DNA of 64,000 nt from Norana najaformis (Eukaryota > Annelida > Clitellata > Crassiclitellata > Hormogastridae), in the NCBI GenBank assembly GCA_964023275.1, contig OZ029914.1, positions 34,561,424 to 34,625,423 on the forward strand, in the 5' to 3' direction. The position numbers and the translations under genes are program-made. Positions 17,079 through 64,000 of this stretch are shown here, in pieces; the first letter of the stretch is position 1; every line of letters begins with the position of its first letter. A model generated the notes under the pieces. It worked only from the letters and a program-made list of their open reading frames with translations, searched no databases and was not told where the DNA came from.

Positions 17079-18076
17079 TCAGTTCAGTGCATCGACAATA
17101 TCACACATCATTTGATCAAGTGTTGCACTTTCTAAGTCCTCTTCCTCTTCGTCATCTTCTGGCTCTTCTTTGACTACCGCTTGAAGGCCTTCATCAGGTC
17201 CAACATGGTTTATATTAATGGTAAGCTTCGTGTCAAGGGCCGAATCATCAGGAAGCGAGGCCAGGCAGTTCTGCAGCATCTCCTGGACGTGCCTGAAATG
17301 CTTCTGGAAGCGATCGACCGTTTCCAGCCGCTGGCGTTTCTGAACTTCTAGCATAACACGAAGAGTTTCTCGAGCCTGATGTGGTCGAAATTCGTTGATT
17401 AGATGATGCATGTGTATGAAAAGTAGTGTCAGGTCATCAATCTTCTCAACTCGGCGCTGAGAGTCTGGGGCTTTTATTAGAATATCTAGCAGATCCAAGA
17501 AGTTAACAAGTATTGAGAAGTTCAGTTTTTTCAGTTCTCTTTTATGATCATAATTATGTGGATAAAGACGAGGAAGACTTTGACTCTCAAGGGGACGAAT
17601 GATTTGGTCGTCGGCACGAAACTGCACTCCAAACATCGAATAATTGTCCTGCCACAAAAAACGAACAATAATTGTTAACATCATCACAAACTAAGAATGC
17701 AGAATAATAGCCACTCATAAAGATTATTAACAATATGAATATAAATAATTTCAATCTAATTTTAATTTTTATGTTGAAAATCAGTTAATGCTGAGTTAAA
17801 TTTTGTTACAATGTATAATAAATTTTTAAAATAAAAATATTTAGCTATGTTGTAAAATTGGAAGCATTTAGCTGCTGAGTTAAAGAAATTGTGGTTTGGG
17901 CAAAGATCATCAAACTTTGAGTCTTATCATTCTGGTGAATGATAATCCCTTACCCTGATTGGTGGAGGGGGTTTTGGTGCTCGACCTCGTTTGATATTTT
18001 CATCTGTATAATGATTAATATAAACCATTGGTGGTAGTGGAAAAGGAGTCGTTGTTCCAATGTCGTTTGATGCCAT
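17079..18076 (-). CDS. MED7: MED7, Mediator complex subunit 7
   Basis: Subunit of the Mediator middle module, pairing with MED21 in a four-helix bundle that links activators to RNA polymerase II. There are two coding exons, 18076-17954 and 17648-17079, giving 230 residues against 233 in human. Family landmarks are [21 protein letters not shown] in exon 1, then [76 protein letters not shown] and [12 protein letters not shown]. The C-terminus is acidic ([13 protein letters not shown]). TTTCTTTTAAAGTTGTAG lies immediately before the ATG, so a non-coding first exon is likely. A long inverted repeat begins about 80 bp upstream. Confidence 0.97.
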
Positions 18077-27300: not shown

Positions 27301-29865
27301 GTCCTGTGTGACTGGCCAAAACCTTGATTTCTTGTTCAAGTTTCTTAACGTTCTGCCTCCATTATGCAGTGGCAATGAGCGGGAGAAAATCATGCAGGAA
27401 CTGGCTGAACTCCAGGTTAGTCAGATTTTCATCTTAAATGCTAAATCAAGTGCTAAATGAGCCTAAATGCTACTAAAGAAATCAATAAATCAACTCCAGA
27501 TGACACAAACGAACTGCACCTGTCAAATCTCCAATATCATGAAATACGAAATGAATGAATCAGAGCAAGCAACAGCCTGCCAGTGGTAGTTTTAGTGTTG
27601 CTGGTGCCAACCCATCGTTCGGCGATGCCAGTCGGTTATGTAGTAACCTGCAGCATCACCTTATCAACCTTCTGTAGAGAATGAATACGATTCTGTTCGA
27701 TTGTGGTTTGGCATTGTTAGGTCAGGAGCACCTCTAATGAGTTTCCCTGGAACTGGTGCTGTATAAATGTCCTATTATGATTACAGTTGTGTACCAGTAG
27801 TAGAAACTGTTGTGTAATAAAAACTTTTCCCTGTATTCAGAATATCGAAATAGGCCTGAAGCTGGTTATGGTGTTTAGTCCTTTGCTGATGAGTTCTTAA
27901 GGCATTTTTCCAACCTTCAAGACCTGAAGTTGAACTACGTGACTAAGTAACCATACTCGATAGCAGATATGTATTTAGTGTATATTCACAGGTCTATACA
28001 GTACGTACTGAGCATTTCAGATAGCTGCTCAAGTGGTGCTATGTTAAGTTCTCTTGCATTTACAAAATTACAGTATTGGAACACAAGCCGCTTTCCATAT
28101 TGTTTTACAGATAGATGAGATCTACAGCATTGCTGGAGTTGGAATAGTAGTTGGTGGAACAATCTTACGTGGAACGATAAAAGAAGGTGACAGTCTGTTG
28201 ATAGGACCGAACGACGATGGACTCTTCTTTCCAGTGACAGTTGGATCAGTACATCGTAACCGTTTGCCTTGTCGCTTAGCTACTGCTGGCCAGTCTGCTT
28301 GTGTGTCCATTGGAAAGCCTATTGCTAACAGCTGCCCCATAAGGAAGGTCAGGCCACTTTCATTTTTGTTTATGTACTGTTACTGTTACTCGGTGACTGA
28401 GTGTTGCTTGTATTGTAAAGCAGAATGTGTAGTTTCAAGCCTACCATGCATTGGTCACTGTCTATGGACAAAACTTAATTGGCACCCTTGATCAATATCT
28501 TGTGCTTTACATAGTGGTGCTACATAAATACAATGAAAAGATAAATGATTTTCTTGTTGCTATGTGTGAGGTCATTTGATGCCTATGGTTGTTGTTTTGT
28601 GTAAGGAGTTGGATTGAAAAGCTACAAAAATATGTGGCTGTGTGTTTCTAGACATTGATGCCTTTTTAGTATCTCGCAATAGTACTTCCGATGCTAGCCT
28701 AAGTGGTTTACATTTAATTAAGAACAAAAGTATAGCAGAGGTGTGAAATTCTTCTATGCTTGAAACTAAAAAAATATTCCAAGAATTGCCGATTTAGTGA
28801 GACATCCTAAGATTTATCTTGAGCACTGCGCACAAAAGTTCTTAATAAAAAACAGGCAAAACAGACATCTAATTAAAGCAATTCCTGTCGTTGAGACTTT
28901 CCCATGTAAGTCATATTCCACTGATCTGTTGTCATATGTGATCAAAATTCAACCTCTGTGAGAAGAATAAGGTACATTGCAATGTAGTGGAGAAGCGTAT
29001 GTCCTGGTGATAGCTCACCACAGGATTCATTTTATTAGAGTATCTGTCATTTACTTTTGAATCTTTCTTTGTGCAAGGGAATGGTTCTGGTTAGTCCTGA
29101 CCTGAAACCGCAAGCATGTCACGAATTTGAAGCCGACATATATGTTCTCTTTCATAACAAATTTATCTGCCGCGGATTTCAAACCGTTATTCACGTGGGA
29201 AATGTACGACAGACAGCAATCATCACAAAAATGAGCAAGGTTTGTGTCAAAATGGATTCTAATGAAAACAGATGACATGATTTTATCGAATTCATGTGTT
29301 CGGCAAAATCTTCCTTCCATCTTCCTTGAGATGAACTTGTGTTACGTAATAAGCAGAATGCCAAGGCTTTCACTTTTGGCGAAATCTAGAGCTTTGCAAT
29401 GATCATATTGGCATAATTTTACGTAATGTTAGTCTTGTAAAAATTACCACATTTAGGACTTCTGAAAAATCAGTTTGCTTTCTCACATGAAAACATTCAG
29501 TGAATGTAAATTTCTTTGGGCAACATCTATGATTAACTCAGAAAGGAAGTTTTCCATTCTGTTTGTCTGACTACAGCAGAGTAACATGGGTTTCCAAGTG
29601 GTGCTGGTTGCAAAGTAACAGAAAATGAACTATAACAATTTACTGTAATGTTTTGCCTTTACAATTTGTGCCGTACATTTATCATCAGGGAGGCATTCAG
29701 ACTAACGAGAAGGCAATCGTTACATTCAAGTTCATCAACCGGCCGGAGTACATACGAGTGGGATCCCGTCTTCTGTTTCGTGAGGGTCGCACTAAAGGGA
29801 TGGGAGAAGTGACAAAGGTCTTTGTGCCTCGGCCAGGTTCCAGTGATTGTGATCCTTCAAGATGA
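21355..29865 (+). CDS. GTPBP2: GTPBP2, GTP-binding protein 2
   Basis: Translational-type GTPase of the GTPBP1/GTPBP2 family, linked in vertebrates to rescue of stalled ribosomes. Eleven exons join in phase: 21355-21426, 22432-22458, 23211-23395, 24318-24429, 25003-25200, 25755-25929, 26565-26781, 27280-27415, 28111-28347, 29078-29239 and 29689-29865, giving 565 residues. G1 is GNVDVGKS (142-149), G3 is DLCG (223-226) and G4 is TKVD (279-282). [48 protein letters not shown] and [16 protein letters not shown] favour GTPBP2 over GTPBP1. The 9-codon exon 2 (VEEGNIEYK) matches the conserved GNIEYK segment. An in-frame TGA lies just upstream of the ATG. The C-terminus is short. Confidence 0.95.
22624..22903. 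repeat. 46-bp inverted repeat in GTPBP2 intron 2
   Basis: 22624-22669 (starting AAAGAAGAGATAGAGACGTG) is the reverse complement of 22858-22901 apart from one 2-nt gap. The spacer is about 190 bp. The left arm follows a purine-rich tract (AGAAGAAGAAGAAATGAAGC). In pre-mRNA this could form a strong hairpin. Confidence 0.9.
23515..23650. repeat. Degenerate GGTAAGGTAGGG-type repeat
   Basis: A G-rich stretch of imperfect 5-mers (GGTAA, GGTAG, GGGTA) follows GTPBP2 exon 3 by about 120 bp. It contains many GGTAAG strings that resemble 5' splice sites. Confidence 0.8.
24650..24882 (-). mobile_element. tRNA-derived SINE (SINE-1), copy 2
   Basis: On the minus strand it begins GTTTGTGATAGTCTAGCAGT, then AGATCAGGGTTCAAATATC, and ends with a GACTGGCCACCTGCCCC-like block, in the same order as the copy at 2112-2316. 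It lies in GTPBP2 intron 4, antisense to the gene. Confidence 0.65.
25228..25532 (-). mobile_element. tRNA-related SINE (SINE-2), full-length copy
   Basis: On the minus strand from about 25530 it reads GCACAATGGCCTATTGGTAA (A-box-like), then TTGCGGGTTAGACTCCGTG (B-box-like), GTTTGTGCACACTGTGCCTC and GGATGCACTGGCCCTGTGTC. The order matches the plus copy at 10040-10370. It lies in GTPBP2 intron 5, antisense to the gene. Confidence 0.7.
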
Positions 29866-51894: not shown

Positions 51895-54514
51895 ATGACA
51901 TCGGCTGCATTAATCGTCGTTCTTGGTTTTCTGATGATGATCACAGTCGTTTTCTGTCAGACTCATTCTTCAGGTAAGCTACATGTAACTGCAAAACTTC
52001 GTTGATGTTATAGGAAAGAGTTATTATAATTGGCTGTTTCTTCAGCAAACCTACCTATGCCAACTCCGAAAATGTTACAGTTATGAGGAAGAGCTACTCT
52101 GCTTTAAAACGGTTGAAAGCTGTTTGGACTAGAGGACGATCTTAAAGTGTTAGTCAGCTCGGACTGAAAAACATTTCCTCAAAATTAGTTAGAAAAAGTT
52201 TGTTAACTACAAACTGAGATTTTGCAGCTAAACTACTAGTTACAACTGATTTTGAAAAAAGGTAGTTAAGTACTTTTTAACCACTTAAATGTAATTTAAC
52301 TACTAGTTTTTAACTACAGGAATTAACTACTACCCATCACAGTGCATCAGGACCTGAAACATCTTAAATTAGCCTATTTTAACAATATTTGAAGTACTTG
52401 CAGCAAGTGATAAAATAAGATCGAACCGAATTCGAACGTTACGTTACGTTACAGAAAATGTTCGTCTGTTTTTTTTACCGCAGCTCTGAACGTCACGACG
52501 AACGCCACGTCTTTCTGCGTGGAATACAGAGACTCCGGACTTCAACTAAGTGGATTGGATTCGATGGTATTCAGTCTGCAATGTTCGGCCAGTGCTTATA
52601 TCAGGTTAAGCGCAGGAAATGGCTTCTATTCGGAACAGGATTATGTCATCGTCATCACTAACCAATTAGGCGCCAATTATTCGATTGGGTGAGAAGACGC
52701 TCCGTTCTGTTTCACTCCCTAAACAGTTTACACATTAATTAATTAGTCAATTAATTAGTTTAATTAATTAATTAATTAATTCTGTTCACCTCCTTTCATA
52801 ATAACATTGGGGAAGAGGAGATCAGACGAGACATATAGGTGGACATGTCTGATGAGACAAGTTTACGAAAAACACGACATTTTTATCAGTCGGTTGTTCA
52901 TTTGTCCGATCGGTTATTTGAATCCAATCTCATAAGTTATCATTATGTCGCATTTTCTTTATGTTTAATGCTCTGACTTTGGACAAATTTTATAAATATA
53001 ACTCTCTTCTTGGGGACTCCGCGACGCTCGATGAACTCTGTGGCATGGCCGATGATGCTCGTCTCTTTAAAGCAATCTTGAACAAGCCAAACCATGTCTT
53101 ACAACAGCTACTCCCGCCAATTAATGCCCTCAGTTATTCCCTACGGCCCCGCGCTCATGACCGTATTATTCCTTCCGCTGAAAGTTTAACGCGTAAATGT
53201 TTTATTATTAGGATGTTGTATGCATATTGTTTTTCTTGTGTTCTTAAATACATGTAAACAGATGTGTGATTAGGTATTGGTTAATAAAGAATATGCCTAC
53301 TTACTTTACTGCTTAGATATTACCCTCACACTTACAAGTCTAACGTCACGAAGAAGTCTGCGTCAAGTCCTGCCGCCACATTGTACTGGATCTCTTGGAA
53401 GAACGGAATAATTGCAGCAGGACTCGGTTCAATTGTTGGAATGACTCCACTGGTTGTGTTCAACGATCAGAGCTTCGCAGCTTCTGAACAGACCATGACC
53501 TATATGGGACTCTGCAGTCTGGCAGATGCATTCTGGACATTCGCAATCACAACCAACGGTATGAAGGTCTACAGAGGACTGGTTGTATGTATGTACCGAA
53601 TGTATGAATGTATGTATGCATGCATGCATGTATGTATCTATTTATGCATGTATATATGTATGTATGTATATATGTATGTAAGTATGTATGTATGTATGAA
53701 TGCATGCATGTATGTATGTATGAATGCATGCATGTATGTATGTATGTATGTATGGATGGATGGATGTATGTATGTATGTATGTATCTATGTAAGTAAGTA
53801 TGTATGTATGCATGTATGTATGTATGTATCTATGTAAGTATGTATGTATGGATGTACGTATGCATGTATCTATGTAAAATATGTATATGTGTATGTGTGT
53901 AAGCATGTGTGACATGTATGAATGCATGTATGTATGTATGTATGCATGTATGTATGTATATATGTATGTATGTATCTATGTATGGATAAATGTATGCATG
54001 TATCTATGTAAGTATGTATATTTGTGTGTGTAGGCATGTGTGACATGTATGTATGCATGTATGTATGTATGTATGCATGTATGACATGTATGTATGCATG
54101 TATATATGTATGTATGAGGACCATCAAAATATCGCCTTTTAAGTACCTTTCAAAACGCTGCCGTTTCTTCTTGCTTCTGTTGAAGCCTAAATACTTTGTT
54201 TTTGTTTATAGACTCTGCGCTGACGTCATTGGGCCTAAATGCAACGCTGTCGACTGCAAGTCCTCCTTTGATAATTCCACAGACAGGTAGTCTAAAATAG
54301 ACGCTTTTGTCTGCTGCAGCCTTAGTTGGCCTAGACATTTCTTTTCTTCTTTTTTTCGCCTTGCCAACTCAAAATTGACGCAAGCTCCTTGGCGACAACC
54401 AGCTGCAAACCTGTGCTTCGTTGTCGAAGACAAATGACCACGAAAAAATCGGATTTAGGATGAGCAATCGTAACAATAAACTTTGATATTAGTATTGATA
54501 TACTATTACATAGA

Positions 54515-54594
<80 letters not shown>

Positions 54595-57500
54595 GATAAG
54601 AGTTATAAGGATCTGTAAACAAAGGTTGGGAAGATGTAGGCTAACAACGCTGGATAGAAGGAGAAGCAGATGAGACCTTAATGAAACTTATAAGACCATC
54701 ACTGGAAGCAGTGCAGTCGGAGAGATTCTTTGAATTAGCACCAAAGAAGGTGACTCGAGGCCACAAATGTAAATTATTTACAAAACAGAAAGGAATATTA
54801 GGGCAGAAATTCTTTTCAGTGGAAGAGTAAGTAAGTAAATAAGTAAGTAAGTCAGTCAGTCAGTAAATAAGTAAGTAAGTGAGTGTGTGAGTGAGTAAGT
54901 AAGTAAGTAAGTAATAAGTAAGTAAGGCCACTCGAGGCCACAGATAAATTATTTACAAAACAGAAAGGAACACTATGCCAGAAATTCTTCAGTGCATGAG
55001 TAAGTAATTAAGTAAGTATGTATGTATGTATGTATGCATGTATGTATGTATATATGTATGTATATATGAAATGTATGTATGTATTTGTGTAAGTTTAATG
55101 TTAACAATACCTTGCCGTGCCTTGTTACCTCATTTTAGTTAGACAGTACATTGTCAAATGACTCAATTGCATGATTACAGGACAGACGTTCTCTACGACC
55201 AACGGAAGCAATTATTTCAATGACACTGGAGCGAATCTGACAGGTTTCGACTGGGTAACATTTGGCGTTCGCAGTTGCTGTTCGGCGCATATTGCATTGA
55301 GTGCCGGAGGATTTCAAGCTGGTCAGTGGGCCTATGAAATCGCTCTTGGCGACGAACAGAATATGGTCAGCCGAATCAGGTACAGTCATCATCGTCATTC
55401 TAATGAGCAGCAACACAGCGTCATCGTCGTCATCATTATCGTCGTCATAATCATCGTCATCGTCTTCATCATTATCGGCTTCATTGTCCTAGCCGTCATC
55501 ATCATAATCATCATCGTCTTTGTCGTCGTCGCCACAACAACCAACATCATAATCATCATCAACATTATCAACTATATTAAGATGAACATTGTATATCATA
55601 ACCATGTAGGCTGTTACTGAATTTTTGTGTAAATATAACAACCTTAAAAATATAAAAATAGTACATCCTGCACTATGTTTCAAGCTTGTCATGGGCCGTA
55701 GACATAAACCGCATGAATCAAACCAATTTATTTCACCCGAACTCACGCACATCAGTTAACGTTGAAGTTTAAAGCCGTATATGAGCATGTTAATTGAAGC
55801 TACTGTTGCCCGTATGAACAAGAGAATAGAATGATTATTGGCCCATCTCTATGGAATGGACTTCCGCTATCGTTTCGTGCAAGGGTCTCTGTTGGTGATA
55901 GAGCTCAGTCAGCTCGTTGTTTAAAGACGCTCTTATTTCCTCTGGGTTCTAATGCTGGAAGCGCCTTTGAGTAGTTTGTTCTGTAAGAAGCGCTATATAA
56001 GTTATGGAATACAATACAATACAATGAATTCTTTTGATTGACTTACAACAGAGAAGTGCTGAAGAGCGGCTTCGATCGCAATAATTACGAGACGCCCCTT
56101 GTGCTCGACTGCGATATGGTTCGGTGGTTCTGGGTCTCCTGGCCTTCCACGGGTATTTTGTCCGTCGGTCACGGATCTGTACGAGGCGATTCCGTCTTCA
56201 TGGTCTACTCAGCTCGACTACTGACTGTGACTCGAATGGGAGTCAGTACCTTGTCTTGCTCAGGAGACTGGGTCGTTCCCAACGTTTACTATCCGCCTTC
56301 AAGTACGTTGCTTCAATGTCTGGTCTTTATGCAGGTTTAGCCACGTACCTCTGGAACTGTGCAGCTTTTGGGCAACTGAATTTAGATGAGCAATATATAT
56401 ATATATATACATATTATTTATTATATATTAAAGAGTTAAGTACTTCTGCAGCTTTTGGAAAGCTGCTAACCAGAATTCTCATTAAAGAATACAGAAGTGT
56501 GTTAGAAGCACAAGTTGCATTAAACATTAAGCATACGTAGGGCCTACTTGATGTTTTTAATGAACTTTAATAATATTAGCAAAAACAGCGCTTTGGAAAG
56601 GCACATTAAAAGCGCTATATCGGTGACTGGAAATATATATACATACATGCTTACATAAATGCCTATGTTCACAGGGGCGTACATTTTTAATTAAGTTACT
56701 TGTCAGCCTAAACGCACGAAATTGACAGCCTCATTAAGTAGTGATAGTGACATTGAAATTTACGTGCAATAGATTTGCTTCTTTTAAATTGTTCAGCTAC
56801 GCTTCTACCAAATATTACAGCGGCTGAGTATTCGACCCAAACATCGCCGTATTTCTCACTGGCAAACTTCACCCACACCAGCGCAATTGCAACCTCGGTC
56901 ACCGTTCCCAGATCTTCTATATCGACTTCTACGTCGAATGGAACACTAACAGATGGAACAATGACAGATGGAACAATGACAGATGGAACAATGACAGATG
57001 GAACAATGACAGATGGAACAATGACAGACAGCAATTCAACCTCCTCAACAACTTCGACTGTAAGAACAAGACCAGCGCAGAACGCTACAGCAACAGGATT
57101 TACCAGCACCAACTCTTCAATGGCTAATTCAACTGAGCCTTATGTCATGACTTCGGAAACGACCAAGGCTAACTCAGACCAAACCACAGTTCCATCCACG
57201 GCTTCAGAAACAAGCCTAACAATAGTCGGATACGACATAATGGAAACACAGTATTTAGTTCCGGCGAACGGCTCAACGCTTGCCCAATCAACCGTGACGG
57301 TTGAGACAAAAGCAACCTCCTATTCTGCTTTAAATACCACGCAGTATTCAGCCTCGAAAGTTGGCTTCACAACGCTCAACTCAACCGTTAGCGAAGGATC
57401 ATATTCAACTTCAGAATGGGGTTCAGCAGTGACCAATTATTCATCCGCAACAGTAACTCCGCTTTTCCCTCTTGAATCAGCGGCACCCAGTCTACCAAAT

Positions 57501-60500
57501 CTTCAAAATACGTTTTCGTCTTTTGTCGGGTCTCCGGACTCCAAAAACACAACAATTTCAACTCCTTCATCTGGTGCGGCGACGGACGGAACGAAATGGG
57601 AATCGTGGAATAACTTGAACGATTCCTTTACAGCTGATGCATCGGTCGCAACCGAGCACCATGACCTAACCACAGATTTCGGCGTCAGTTATCCAAACGC
57701 AGGCAATGCCTACATCAACGGTAAGGCTTAGGCCAAGTCTGATTCCGGGGAATTAACCTAACGTAATAACACAACATAGCATAATTTGACATGAAACAAC
57801 ATAACATTAAAGAAATATAGCATAACATAAAACAACTTAGCATGCCATAACATAAGAGCATAAAATAAAATAAATGACTTGCCTTTTAAGTAGTTCAGAA
57901 GACATTTCACCTGTGCTAGAATTACTAATACGGAAGTTGAATTTTTATTAATTATAATAATTAAGCAATACTCTATTAATGGAGTTATTCTGGGTTTAAT
58001 TTCGGTGTGTGATGTGTTCTTATTGGTAAAGGTTACTTGCGAATAAACAATCACACAAATGTTCACTGATATTTCTTGTTTTTCTTTAGCATCGAATCGT
58101 GAAATAAAGCTGATTCCAAACGGTAAGATCCATACACTTGCGATAGAAACTGCGTCTAGATAATGACGTGCAGGATGCCTTCGTATGAAGAGATAGGTAT
58201 TGATTCTTGCTTCGGTTGTGAGAGGATCAGGGATCAAATGCTTGAAGTCCGCGCTTTTAGGCGATGTTATTTCAATGAGCAACGATAGGAAGATCAAGAC
58301 ATTAGTGTTCGGAATGATGGATGACCAAACAAGAGAGGACGACCCCATAAAGAATGGGTAGGCGATATACTCGAAGGGTGTGGAACATCACTCCAGGAGC
58401 TGAGCCACGCCGCACTGGAAAGGCAAGAGTGGAAAACATAGTTACAATGGCATCGAACACCTACGGGCGTTGTACCCATGGTTTATGATGATGATGATTT
58501 CAGTGTCTGATTATTTACTATTAATGTACTATAGCCCAAATGTAACCAGATGGTAATGTTAGTTAGTTAATTAGTTCAAGAAGGCTAATTTTGAGTTCTC
58601 AAATGTGCCTTTCTATTACATTAAGCATACATCAACTTCAACCTGGGAATCACATTACAAAGGAGTGTTTGGTGCATTACTTTCATCCTTTCGACCTTTA
58701 CCCTTTTTACCTTTACATGACCTAACGGGGTCTTTGTTTCTACATGTTCAGTGCCGACGATGCTGTGTCCGTCTCCTCCGTTGGTTGAGAACACAGAACT
58801 GACCGTCTCTGACAACTGGACATATAGTCAGGTGGCCATCTACACCTGCCTGGGTGGCCATTACTTTGCTGCCGGTGGTCGTTCTCGCTCCAGTCTCTGT
58901 ATCAACGGAAGCTGGCACATCAGAGTCAAAGCATGCAAACGTGTGTACCAGCTTCAATACAATCTATGGAATGAACATCTGCTATCGTTTCGTGCATAGG
59001 TCTCTGTTGGGGACAGAGCTAAGTCAGCTCCTTGTTTAAAGACGTTCTTATTTTCCCGGGGCTCTCATGCTGGAAGCGCTTCGGAGTAGTTTGTTCTGTA
59101 AGAAGCGCTATATAAGTTATCAAATACAATACAATACAAAATACAATACAGTACAAAGTAATTTGATAATGCCTTCTTACCGCAGTTCAGAAGACCAACT
59201 CTTTTCCAGATCCAGTGGCGTAAACGACTGTGTGGTGGCACTGGTGGGCCTTTCTCTCACACTCGAAAGACTTGTTAATGGCGACTACAAAAGGTATTTG
59301 ATGCAAAACTTGTAGCTCCTGGTAATGCAGAATGAACTTTCGGCAGCTGAGGTCTAATATCATTTGATTTGCTGACAACTTTACTTTTAGCGGTGTCCTG
59401 CAGTTACCTTTCGCTGGAGAGTAGAAGGAACGTGATCTTGACCTGGAATCAACTCGCAGTTGCAACCTGCAGTAATGGAAAGAGGGTTCAAAATGGAAAC
59501 TTAACGGGAATAGCAAAGTGCAGTGCGTCGCATACTGGCATAAGTGGAGTTCTATCGAAGCCGTTCTATCAAGAATGCAACAGTAAGTAAACTCTAATTA
59601 ATATTGTTTACTTCCTCAGCACCGGTGGTTAACTAGCTATTGGCCTGCCACATGACTCGCAACTATGGTGATCTACCGGTAAAAATCTGCAGGCGATTCG
59701 CTTGTAGTCTGATAGTGCAAATCGCGAAGATTAACGGAACGATTTGACTAACGGTGTATTTCGTGTAATGTAATGTAACAAACACTTATATAGCGCTCTT
59801 CAAGTATCTCTCAAAAGCGCTGATGACACGGCTATCCTACCGATCTAAACAAGTGCGTTTTCAAGTTAACAGAGAATGAACACTGAGTTAAACTAAGTGG
59901 AAAAGTACGAATGTTTAAAGGGAGACTGTTCCAGAACGATGAACCAAAGCAGGAGAAGGCACGATGAGCACGCAACGACGTGCGGTAACGTGGAATCAGC
60001 ATATCTCCACGAGCAGCAGAACGCAGCAACCGGCCACCAGGTCGACTGGAAACAGGAACACACAGCTCCCGAATGTAACCCGGTGCTGTGCCAACCGTAG
60101 CAGAACGGACAAGTAGAAGAACCTTGAACCGAATCCGTTCCGAAATAGGAAGCCAGTGTAGCGTCTCCCTGATGTAGTCCGAAATGTGAGAACACTTTGG
60201 GAGATTTGCAACCATCCGAGCCAAGACAGACTGGAACTGGCCAAGTCTGAACTTCGGGAGACCCGCCAGGATAGAATTGCAGCAGTCGATTCGTGTGAGG
60301 ACGAACAAGTGGACCAGAGTAACAGCAGCTTTGAAGGACAGGTTGCGCCGCAACACACGAATCTGCTGCAGCTGATAGAAACAGGATCTACAGAGCGAGT
60401 TGACATGATCAGCCATAGTTAGTTCACCATCGAGGAGGACGCCCAGGTCACGGACCACAGGTAACACACCCCAGCCAGGAAATCCAGCCTGTAGCGCTTC

Positions 60501-63440
60501 AGCATCAGTCCCAGAACGCGCCCGACGTGTGCCCAGCCAAATGTACTGGGTTTTGGCTTCGTTTAACAGAAGTCGATTTGAAGCCATCCAAACCTGAACT
60601 TCCGCCACGGCAGAAATACATTAGACACACAGGCATGCGCATCTGATGGAAGGCAGGTGGAATATAGCTGGACGTCGTCAGCATACAGGTGGCACCGAGA
60701 TCCCAGGGAGGTGATGAGCCGGGTCAAGTATACAGAATGAAGAGCAATGGCCCAAGGACTGAGCCCTGTGGGACGCCGAATGGGAGCGGCGCCCAAGCCG
60801 AACGATCAGAGCCCAGAGCCACCATCATAGACCGCTCATCCACGAAGGAACTGATCCAGGCCAGAGGTGAAGCGCAGATGCCAAACGAGATGTTAAGACG
60901 TGTAAGAAGGATAACATGGTCAACAGTGTCAAACGCTGCACTCACGTCTAGAGGGGCAAGCAGCGTAACGCAGCCGGTGTCAATAGCATCACAGATGTCC
61001 GAGATCGGCCTCAGGAGTACCGTTTCTGTGGAATGGCCCTTTCTGAAGCCTGACTGGAACTTGGGCATCAGATCGTTCGCCTCCAAGTAGCTAGTAATCT
61101 GCTGGGCAACAAGTCTCTCAATGATCTTTGATAAAAACGTGAAGTTTGATATCGGTCGGTAGTTGTCTATTACATCCGTGTCCAGTCCCGGCCTTTTCAG
61201 GGAAGGTATGATGATCGCACGTTCAACGATTTGTTGCACAGCCGTGTGATGTTGAAAAAGTCAGATAATGATGATGATGATGATGACGATGATGATGATG
61301 ACATGATGATGACGATGATATAATTTGATGTAATCTTCCAGCGTCTTTGTGTCCATCGGTGCCACAACTGACCAATGCTTACATTCGCTACGGTCAGTGG
61401 CCTTACAAGCTGACTGTCGTTTGCTATCGTGGTTTCTACCTAACATCCGGGTCACAGCTTCAGTACCTCGAATGCACAGCGGATGGAATATGGTCGATTC
61501 CAGAGCCTTGTTTCGGTAATCAATCTAGTTCATTAGTTGTGTGATTATTTAAATGAACGAACGAATGAATGAATGAATCAGCGAATGACTCGACTGAATA
61601 TTCCAATGATTGACTGAACGAATGATAGAGTCAGGATTCGGTTTAGAGCTGATTTACATACATACATAAAATACGTACATACAAAAAGAGATCCAATATG
61701 CATGATAGGTTAACCATAGAACGTTGTATGCTGATTCTAACCTGTGCGACTACGATCCTACCCGTTCCAGCATGCAACAATACATACATACATACATACA
61801 TACATGCATGCATTCATACATGCATACACACATACATAGATACATACATTCATACATACATACATACAAACATACATACATACTTGCATACATTCATACA
61901 TACATACATACATACAAACATACGTACATACGTACGTACATACATACAAACATACATACATACATACATACATGCATACATACATATACAGGTCCATTAT
62001 GCATGATAGGTTAACACAGATTTGCCTCTGCCTCTGAAGCTGTAGACTGTGGATCGTTGATGGAGGCATTGAACGTGGATCTGAGCACAAATTCAACGAC
62101 CTATGGAACCGTCGTCAATGCATCTTGTAAGCCAGGAACACGGACACTAGATGGAACATTCTTCCAGATCCTTGCATGCAGCGATTCCGGTGCTTGGAGT
62201 GGTTCTCTGCAGCAGTGCTATGGTATGTTCGCTAGAAGAAAACGTATCTGATCTCTGCTAAAGCAGCACACACCATTCCGCAAGCGAATGTCGATTTGCA
62301 TCCGTGATCGTAATTATCTCCACGTCCAAAAAAGCTAAGTCGGTTGGAACCAGATTATTCACAAGTGTTAAGTCAAAAACAAAATCTGTGACACACTTAG
62401 GGTCAGGTTCGGTTCCAAGTCCAGGTCTACGTGAAGTTCAAGCAGATAGAAAGACAGACGACTAAGGCCGAATAATTGGAGCGGCGGGAAAGTTAAGGAT
62501 ATGAGCAGAAAAACCCAAATGTGGGCCAACACAAAGCGCAGATGCCTCCTAGACAATATTAAAATGTAATTAGTACACATATAACTATATAATGTACATA
62601 TTATATATTAGGGAGTTGTATACCGAATACATCATGTGCTCATATAATTACATAAGTGCATGTCTTGCACTCGAACGTGACACCAATTAGATTTAGATAA
62701 TTTAGGCCTAACACATTGTAAATTTTGTCACGCCTTTCACGTTTCGCATGTGACTCTTGTCTTTTGTTGGCCTAAGGAAATACTTTGTAATTATATAACT
62801 TCTAATGCGCCTGTGTATAATGCACAAGGAGTCAACCGATGGCGCACCAAAGCCAAGCCGCGATCAGGTCAATATCTGCAGACATTTAATCTGTTAGACA
62901 AGATCCTCCTAAGCCTAGTCTTTTAGAACTGCTAGATAACCATGTTGTAGCGCCTTTGTTATATCCAAAATAGTCAAATACAAACATGTAGGCTATACAA
63001 ACGTAGACATGTTTGCGTCGTGTTCGTTTAAGTAATTTCTTTTGTAGAACTGTCGTGTCCAGCGTTTCCTAGGCCTAATAATTCCCTCTTAATTGGCCTG
63101 ATGACTGAGCCATTTCCGTTTGGTACAACGATCCTGTACTATTGCAACGACGGAAGGCGTTTCGAAGATGGTCACTGGTACAAGTACATCCGGTGTGACA
63201 GGAATGGACTCTGGTCTGAAACGGAATTCACCTGCGATTGTAAGTTCGCATTGCATTGGCGCTAAGTGTTTGCGGTGCTCTCGCCTGCATAGCAGCCAGT
63301 GCCTGCATGGACTAACTACTGATGTAGAGCATTTTGTGCAGACACTCGTTCTCTGTTTTTCTTTCTCTTCTGCTTTCTTTCTCCCTTCATTAATTCTTTC
63401 TTTCTCCGTCCACTCTCGTTTTCTCTGTATCTCTCTCTCA

Positions 63441-63486
<46 letters not shown>

Positions 63487-63757
63487 ATCTTCACCCTTTG
63501 CATATTTCTGACTATATCTTTGCCCTTCTGTTCCCTCTCTGTTTTCCTGTATGCTTTCTTTATCTGCGTGTTTTTTCCCCTTCTTTTCTTTCTATCGGTG
63601 TGACTTTTGTTCGTTCATTCATTCTCTTTATCTATCCATCTGTCTATCCGTCTATCTGTCTATCTGTATGTCTGACTGTCCGTATCTATCTATCTGTCTA
63701 CCTACCTACCTATCTACCAACCTACCTATCTACCTACCTACCTACCTACCTACCTAC

Positions 63758-63847
<90 letters not shown>

Positions 63848-63868
63848 GTCTATCTATCTATCTATCTA

Positions 63869-63903
<35 letters not shown>

Positions 63904-64000
63904 CTCTATAGGCCTACAGTAACCAGACAGCACATCGCAGTTTTCTCTTCTGGCTTTCAGACAGTAGGTGTCGACCAGTTCCGCAGATGCTCAACGGTGT
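51895..64000 (+). CDS. Secreted/surface protein: two FAMeT domains, mucin stalk, six or more sushi modules (3' end off the right edge)
   Basis: Fourteen exons join in phase: 51895-51973, 52484-52688, 53317-53558, 54212-54286, 55181-55379, 56052-56302, 56797-57720, 58090-58122, 58752-58940, 59391-59582, 61342-61515, 62046-62222, 63048-63239 and 63961 onward, about 990 residues so far. Exon 1 is a signal peptide (ALIVVLGFLMMITVVFC). Exons 2-3 and 5-6 each form a Methyltransf_FA (FAMeT) domain; the second shows FGVRSCCSAHIALS, WAYEIALGDEQNMVSRIR and WFWVSWPSTGILSVGHGS. Exon 7 is a 308-residue Thr/Ser-rich stalk with TDGTM repeats. Exons 9-13 are one sushi (CCP) module each, with four cysteines, and exon 14 starts a sixth. 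FAMeT domains lack proven methyltransferase activity in such proteins, so a binding or adhesion role is inferred. No membrane anchor is visible yet. Confidence 0.88.
52725..52785. repeat. TTAA-rich repeat
   Basis: ATTAATTAATTAGTCAATTAATTAGTTTAATTAATTAATT, imperfect, in intron 2 of the FAMeT/sushi gene. Confidence 0.85.
52950..53290 (+). mobile_element. 5'-truncated LINE 3' end
   Basis: An open frame of about 95 codons ends with NALSYSLRPRAHDRIIP and ESLTRKCFIIRMLY, the C-terminal signature of a class of non-LTR retrotransposon ORF2 proteins (LRxRxHxRxLP...FIxRMLY). It ends in TTAATAAAGAATATG. It lies in intron 2 of the FAMeT/sushi gene, sense orientation. Confidence 0.65.
53585..54116. repeat. 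(TATG)n microsatellite array
   Basis: About 530 bp of TATG units with CATG, TATC and TAAG variants, starting 26 bp after the end of exon 3. Near-duplicate blocks (TGTGACATGTATG, AAGCATGTGTGACATG) suggest a higher-order duplication. All Tyr/Met/Cys and Ile/His/Thr frames here are repeat artefacts. Confidence 0.97.
54514..54596. repeat. (ATT)n microsatellite
   Basis: About 27 uninterrupted ATT units in intron 4. Confidence 0.97.
54822..55078. repeat. (GTAA)n and (TATG)n tracts
   Basis: AAGTAAGTAAGT-type runs at 54828-54928 and 54998-55020, then TATG runs to 55078. A ~50-bp direct repeat around ACTCGAGGCCACA...TTATTTACAAAACAGAAAGGAA occurs at 54752 and 54931. Confidence 0.85.
55382..55565. repeat. 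Degenerate CATCAT/CGTCGT tract
   Basis: Imperfect CAT, CGT and ATT triplets starting immediately after exon 5. It generates hydrophobic Val/Ile frames that look like a membrane segment but have no exon context. Confidence 0.85.
55822..56028 (+). mobile_element. 5'-truncated CR1/L2-like LINE 3' end, copy 1
   Basis: The frame WNGLPLSFRARVSVGDRAQS resembles the WNSLP...RTYLF end of CR1/L2 ORF2. It ends GAAGCGCTATATAAGTTATG and an AATAC repeat tail. It matches 58962-59158 along its length and stops about 24 bp before exon 6. Confidence 0.75.
56390..56660 (+). repeat. Low-complexity AT tract and GCGCT-type tail
   Basis: A short TATATATA run at 56394-56410 is followed by ACAGCGCTTTGGAAAGGCAC and AAAGCGCTATATCGGTGACT. 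It is a decayed LINE/SINE end in intron 6. Confidence 0.5.
56946..57030 (+). repeat. 15-bp coding tandem repeat (TDGTM)
   Basis: ACAGATGGAACAATG is repeated five to six times inside exon 7 of the FAMeT/sushi gene, in frame, encoding Thr-Asp-Gly-Thr-Met. Copies are almost identical at DNA level, so copy number may vary between individuals. Confidence 0.97.
58255..58502 (+). mobile_element. RTE-like LINE 3' end
   Basis: Reads KRGRPHKEWVGDILEGCG, then LQELSHAALERQEWKT and NTYGRCTHGL, the common C-terminal signature of RTE-type endonuclease-RT proteins. It ends in an ATGATGATGAT tail. It lies in intron 8 of the FAMeT/sushi gene. Confidence 0.75.
58962..59158 (+). mobile_element. 5'-truncated CR1/L2-like LINE 3' end, copy 2
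   Basis: Shares GCTATCGTTTCGTGCA, GTCTCTGTTGG, TTGTTTAAAGACG and GTAAGAAGCGCTATATAAGT with the copy at 55822-56028, including the AATAC-type tail. It begins about 20 bp after the end of exon 9. Confidence 0.78.
59764..61255 (-). mobile_element. CR1-like LINE, frameshifted reverse transcriptase
   Basis: On the minus strand three frames follow one another: 61239-60724, then about 60720-60600, then 60608-59832. Reverse transcriptase blocks in order are NYRPISNFTFLSKIIERL, FQSGFRKGHSTET, DVSAAFDTVDH, GVPQGSVLGPLLFILYT and HLYADDVQLY, followed by ISDYIRETLHWLPISERI and SSFWNSLPLNIR. At least two frameshifts separate the frames, so it is inactive. The 3' end reads AGCGCTATATAAGTGTTTGT plus TTACA repeats. 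It lies antisense in intron 10 of the FAMeT/sushi gene. Confidence 0.9.
61262..61322. repeat. (GATGAT)n tract
   Basis: Imperfect GATGATGAC repeats immediately before exon 11. They may be the target or tail of a second element adjoining the CR1-like LINE. Confidence 0.85.
61655..61990. repeat. (TACA)n microsatellite array
   Basis: CATACATACATA units with GCATG and AAACATA variants between 61783 and 61990, with a smaller run at 61656-61684. TGCATGATAGGTTAACC occurs on both sides (61698 and 62001), so the array sits between two direct copies of this motif. Confidence 0.92.
62305..62540 (+). repeat. Dispersed repeat R1 copy
   Basis: TAATTATCTCCACGTCC, GGAACCAGATTATTCACAAG, TTAAGTCAAAAACAAAATCT and AGGTTCGGTTCCAAGTCCAG follow the R1 order. 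It lies in intron 12 of the FAMeT/sushi gene. Confidence 0.7.
62798..62880 (+). repeat. Dispersed repeat R2 copy
   Basis: ACTTCTAATGCGCCTGTGTA then AATGCACAAGGAGTCAACCG matches 20098-20180 closely, including the preceding AACTTCTAACGCGCCAGTGT. It lies in intron 12. Confidence 0.7.
63434..63484. repeat. (CT)n microsatellite
   Basis: CTCTCTCT run within a longer pyrimidine-rich stretch (63330-63600) in intron 13. Confidence 0.95.
63635..63908. repeat. Compound (TATC)/(CTAC)/(TGTC) microsatellite
   Basis: CTACC units near 63700-63755 pass into TATC units (63756-63870) and then TGTC units (63871-63898). The run ends about 50 bp before exon 14. The long Leu/Ser/Tyr/Ile frames here are not coding. 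Confidence 0.97.

Follow-up and report, generated by a model that had tools for sequence, protein, structure and literature searches.

A predicted single-pass membrane protein of Norana najaformis with two FAMeT domains, a mucin-like stalk and a sushi array

Which protein is encoded at the right-hand end of a 64,000-nucleotide stretch of the Norana najaformis genome, is it the product of one gene, and what might it do? The stretch, hereafter the window, occupies positions 34561424–34625423 of contig OZ029914.1 (C2) in a genome of 608 Mb and 17 contigs. A sequence-only reading of it had proposed an in-phase chain of exons for a signal peptide, two FAMeT domains (Pfam Methyltransf_FA, PF12248), a Thr/Ser stalk and a sushi array. 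The start, the domain order and the phase are as that reading had them. The gene extends beyond the window end and closes within 4 kb of flank. The predicted product is taken, with slightly better than even confidence, to be a single-pass type I receptor that carries FAMeT heads and serves recognition.

The gene was assembled by hand from open frames and splice sites, using 40 kb fetched rightward of the window. The model consists of 17 exons on the forward strand. It opens with the ATG at position 51895, its stop codon ends at window-equivalent 67882, and the 1290 amino acids encoded comprise, in order, a signal peptide, a pair of FAMeT domains, the Ser/Thr-rich stalk, the products of nine sushi exons, a transmembrane helix and a tail of 28 amino acids. 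All 16 introns are GT-AG with matching phases, and the frame is open to the stop; splice sites were picked with phase in mind, so that the phase match is a sign of consistency and no test, and individual exons may be wrong. Exons 1–13 lie in the window, the thirteenth truncated by its edge; fourteen had been counted there before.

Exon 1 (51895–51973, +) begins with the start codon and encodes the signal peptide MTSAALIVVLGFLMMITVVFC, in which hydrophobicity over ten residues peaks at 3.12; its donor site is at 51973. FAMeT domain 1 is formed by exon 2 (52484–52688, +; N-terminal half, ending in phase 2) and exon 3 (53317–53558, +; C-terminal half, B type), both supported by the model and Pfam, exon 3 also by alignment. 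Exon 4 (54212–54286, +), a linker of 25 amino acids placed by splice sites and phase only, is the least certain exon. FAMeT domain 2 is formed by exon 5 (55181–55379, +; N-terminal half, ending in phase 2; genome PF12248 search, model, Pfam) and exon 6 (56052–56302, +; C-terminal half, A type; model, Pfam). Each FAMeT domain is thus split by a phase-2 intron. Exon 7 (56797–57720, +) is by model and composition a mucin-like stalk of 308 amino acids, 38% Ser+Thr, free of Cys and bearing 13 of the 34 N-glycosylation sequons of the whole protein.

The nine sushi exons have four Cys each and are all phase 1-1. Sushi 1 to 5, found by the model and a nine-sequence profile, are exons 8 (58752–58940, +), 9 (59391–59582, +; divergent, without Trp before the last Cys), 10 (61342–61515, +), 11 (62040–62222, +) and 12 (63048–63239, +). 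Sushi 6 is exon 13 (63961–64000, +, and on to window-equivalent 64134 with the flank). Sushi 7, 8 and 9 are modelled in the flank as exons 14, 15 and 16 (window-equivalent 64823–65008, 65838–66026 and 66950–67168, all +), followed by exon 17 (67683–67882, +) with transmembrane helix, tail and stop.

Both domain families proposed from the sequence are recovered by Pfam in the spliced protein: Sushi with 116.6 bits in 8 stretches (cut-off 20.7) and Methyltransf_FA with 87 bits in 2 stretches (cut-off 24.2). Scored singly against PF12248, FAMeT 1 reaches 33.1 bits and FAMeT 2 63.5 bits, both above the cut-off. HRM is the third family above its cut-off (33.4 bits; 26.2), its best stretch (residues 928–973) lying within the sushi array. 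No immunoglobulin (Ig) match was found in this run. In an alignment of nine FAMeT domains of this genome, read by eye, FAMeT 2 keeps a Cys pair and an FW(I/V)xW-like motif; FAMeT 1 keeps YWISW and is without the Cys pair common in the family. Searched against solved structures, FAMeT 2 produced three hits and no credible relative; the best hit, an antibody chain, had E 0.083.

Sequence fetched to the right supplies the C-terminus that the window cuts off, and with it a predicted membrane anchor. Hydrophobicity exceeds 1.6 at the signal peptide, in a short stretch of FAMeT 1 (windows from 124–126) and in the C-terminal helix (1241–1267), where the maximum is 2.35 over 19 residues in windows starting at 1244–1245. 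Three overlapping candidates for the terminal membrane exon, starting at 67683, 67685 and 67820, came from a simple scan of 67169–72000; 67683 was chosen for its top score (2.35 vs 2.06) and for a helix followed by a short basic tail. The 28 residues of the tail include one Tyr, adjoining the membrane.

Could the FAMeT-stalk part and the sushi part belong to two adjacent genes, joined only by the splicing of the earlier reading and of the present model? The exon joins are predicted from DNA, and the genome does contain, on C2, FAMeT pairs near which no sushi was detected and, on C1, sushi arrays near which no FAMeT was. Against two genes, a simple scan, which recovers exon 1 as a control, found no signal-peptide candidate in 56303–58751 and no membrane exon in 57721–58751, between stalk and sushi, although an unusual exon could escape it. 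The stronger and independent argument for one gene is that the FAMeT-then-sushi order recurs elsewhere, at one place on contig C3 and three times on contig C4. Two genes are rated very improbable. The genome holds 79 PF12248 matches and at least 134 sushi matches; among 12 merged FAMeT loci, 3 show sushi after FAMeT on the same strand. The chance of sushi within 20 kb at 2 of the 11 other FAMeT loci is put at 2.5e-5, a post-hoc estimate computed after the co-location was seen, from 89 of 134 sushi rows copied by hand and 12 loci merged by hand, and not counting FAMeT places that turned up afterwards; it becomes 1.9e-4 when some 30 FAMeT loci are allowed for.

The recurrences were located by searching the genome with the FAMeT pair of the window gene (99 matches), with its sushi array and tail (73 matches, with 70 of 153 candidates scored) and with a FAMeT composite from C4 (91 matches). 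By these matches the window gene is not alone: about four relatives appear to share its FAMeT-then-sushi order, making about five predicted FAMeT-sushi genes in the genome.

The relative on C3 (39.15–39.17 Mb, +) has FAMeT half-exons at 39150571 and 39151793, upstream of matches to sushi 1, 4, 5, 6 and 9 at 39158282, 39161295, 39161690, 39162531 and 39165914, which keep the order of the window gene (E 1.6e-8 to 0.0016). The half-exon at 39150571 scores 29.7 bits, and two TGA in its matched stretch are read as intron. A C3 FAMeT half-exon has the same end point, in phase 2, and both C3 sushi exons that were read are phase 1-1. On C4 (41.76–41.83 Mb, −) three tandem units each show two FAMeT places and then sushi matches in the genome searches: unit 1 with FAMeT at 41.825/41.820 Mb and sushi at 41.813/41.811; unit 2 with FAMeT at 41.801/41.797 Mb and sushi at 41.791/41.790/41.788/41.787; unit 3 with FAMeT at 41.778/41.775 Mb (weak, E 0.005 and 0.015) and sushi at 41.768/41.765.

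Each module also occurs apart from the other. On C2, 17 further A-type-then-B-type FAMeT half-domain pairs, same strand, were counted by eye, at 32.8, 36.1–36.3, 37.0, 41.0, 46.9 and 47.4 Mb; among the matches listed, above thresholds, the genome sushi searches gave none near them. Single FAMeT matches on C2 are mostly weak (E about 1e-6 to 0.4), and the one pair that was read scores on a FAMeT profile. Weak half-domain matches only are seen at C10:9.75 and C14:21.16. Sushi matches colinear with the window array cluster at C1:59.39–59.71 (about 0.3 Mb, both strands) and, in smaller number, at C1:33.0, C1:63.4 and C6:5.31; the FAMeT genome searches, under the same limits, gave no match near the C1 and C6 clusters. 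The nine-sequence sushi profile, which recovers both C3:39.16 sushi exons, found no sushi in the partly fetched FAMeT clusters C3:43.97, C10:31.46, C11:21.95–22.0, C13:2.27, C17:3.91 and C7:33.99; the FAMeT places C7:1.20 and C2:36.19 lie outside that scan.

Three further arrangements were seen among these modules. A FAMeT array at C4:20331345–20403124 contains 51 of the 79 genome PF12248 matches, on one strand over about 68 kb. After it come a Ser/Thr-rich frame (20400041) and a second frame, starting at 20402885, that has a transmembrane stretch and a tail in which FDNPAYYG (NPxY) occurs; the whole may represent a single giant FAMeT receptor or a group of several genes. An open frame of 2562 amino acids at C3:41259704–41267338 (−), in one exon, is full of sushi matches and forms a CR1-like array. 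The FAMeT clusters at C3:43.974–43.982 Mb and C10:31.459–31.469 Mb seem to be duplicates: a domain from the first and one from the second are 82% identical.

What would such a protein do? FAMeT is named after an enzyme activity that lacks reliable demonstration, and its position at the tip of a mucin-sushi membrane protein points to extracellular ligand binding. A recognition role is suggested by a 2021 oyster paper that, to judge by its title, reports microbe binding by MFCP, a Methyltransf_FA protein expressed in haemocytes. At the far tip the FAMeT pair would bind a ligand, which may be a microbial surface or some other glycan or protein; the stalk and the sushi rod would keep the heads well away from the membrane; and the short tail would signal, or be taken up, only via a partner. 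Duplication, together with shuffling of exons of compatible phase, probably gave rise to the FAMeT-sushi genes, much as in invertebrate recognition families that have expanded. If the pair recognises microbes or kin, a new domain would join the animal recognition modules. It is conceivable, though doubtful, that FAMeT-headed receptors form an unrecognised animal recognition class in which the duplicated FAMeT pairs of C2 and the duplicated sushi arrays of C1 are pools of modules joined by genes of this kind into a combinatorial, fast-evolving innate or self/non-self repertoire.

Several observations weigh against a recognition receptor of this build. FAMeT 1 is weak by its score and without its Cys pair. 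A single FAMeT domain was found at C3, and several matches of the relatives are weak (E 0.001 to 0.015). The order of FAMeT subtypes is reversed in both relatives compared (the first C4 unit and C2:47.4): the first FAMeT is closer to the second of the window gene, and the second closer to its first. The terminal candidates at 67685 and 67820, in another frame, also hold a hydrophobic stretch, 67683 being the authors' choice, and in the genome search with sushi array and tail the terminal exon matched, among the candidates scored, only itself. Inspection of the 28-residue tail revealed no signalling motif; neither an immunoreceptor tyrosine-based inhibitory motif (ITIM) nor an activation motif (ITAM) was seen. 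A further point is the association of FAMeT with mollusc shell, which also feeds the first of the alternative functions.

Instead of immune recognition, the same membrane-anchored molecule could have a role in adhesion, whether between cells or to the matrix, or in a gamete coat or biomineral matrix. Adhesion proteins often have mucin stalks and sushi arrays. The abalone shell matrix is listed as including UP5, a protein with signal peptide and methyltransf_FA (PMC6003135), and genes with FAMeT domains rise during mussel shell repair (PMC8194122). Multi-copy, diverged clusters suit recognition families somewhat better, a weak argument, and adhesion or matrix, the chief rival, is considered a rather unlikely function, with an appreciable share of the probability. 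Of the earlier proposal of a lectin-like or recognition receptor, the receptor part gains from the transmembrane helix and short tail in the flank; the lectin-like or recognition part is plausible only, the oyster title pointing to microbe binding and the abalone and mussel papers to shell formation.

Alternatively, the sushi array could bind C3-like fragments and control complement, the FAMeT domains serving as an accessory head. The best solved relatives of the array are CR1 (5.8e-93) and CR2 (1.8e-50), within a set of 51 distinct sequences having E of 0.001 or less, and CPAMD8, a thioester-protein relative of complement, carries FAMeT according to PMC9363628. Yet any long sushi array is expected to match CR1 and CR2, which are the solved long arrays; the heads here are FAMeT, and the comparison is one of sequence similarity. 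A complement receptor or regulator is judged unlikely. That the protein is a sesquiterpenoid methyltransferase with farnesoic acid as substrate, an idea for which the Pfam family name is the only argument, is hardly credible, the FAMeT domain being extracellular by topology. The doubt about this activity raised in the sequence-only reading agrees with PMC10015273, in which methylation of farnesoic acid by FAMeT is described as never reliably shown in vitro. The recognition receptor with FAMeT heads is retained as the preferred reading.

Other features lie in and around the gene. Putative antisense reverse-transcriptase-like frames of a long interspersed nuclear element, recognised by eye, are situated in the intron separating exon 9 from exon 10 (window 59835–61260, −). 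One neighbour in the window is MED7 (17082–17690, −; Pfam 146 bits); another is an elongation-factor-type GTPase domain (28048–28488, +; 32.5 bits). A search for PF14830, the haemocyanin domain of molluscs, returned nothing, its controls being silent as well. A downstream frame from window-equivalent 83662 onward (+) is taken to be a putative MGAT2-like glycosyltransferase.

How does the predicted protein compare with known systems? CR1 and CR2 share with it a long sushi array and a type I topology with short tail; they differ in that they are not known to have FAMeT or a mucin stalk, the comparison being one of sequence. Oyster MFCP, to judge by the title of its paper, is likewise a candidate recognition protein with FAMeT. 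Crustacean proteins with two pfam12248 domains resemble the window gene in two tandem FAMeT domains and a linker; in the available description (PMC10015273) they consist of two FAMeT only, or of FAMeT and DUF3421, and stalk, sushi and membrane helix do not figure. The window protein falls outside a definition of two FAMeT domains only, as stalk, sushi and membrane exons follow. Insect FAMeT is fused to DUF3421/DM9 according to PMC10015273 and PMC5712788. CPAMD8-type thioester proteins also contain FAMeT in an immune-type protein; their body is of A2M type, and a sushi array is not mentioned in the accessible part of PMC9363628.

The fester family of Botryllus and the fester co-receptors resemble the window gene in being membrane receptors from several genes that combine sushi with a second kind of recognition domain, and fester itself is without a known signalling domain. 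As described in PMC12065747, fester differs by Ig, one sushi and three membrane helices, and FAMeT or a long sushi array is not described. The window protein, with no Ig match, nine sushi exons and one C-terminal helix, lies outside that definition. The abalone paper lists its methyltransf_FA protein and its sushi proteins as different proteins (PMC6003135). A literature search found no paper combining the FAMeT name, full or abbreviated, with sushi, and in this respect the earlier suggestion of an undescribed architecture stands, while homologues may sit in protein databases. The domains are known, and their combination is not in print as far as literature searches go. Compared by sequence with these systems, the window gene would encode a sushi-array receptor of modular build whose head is new.

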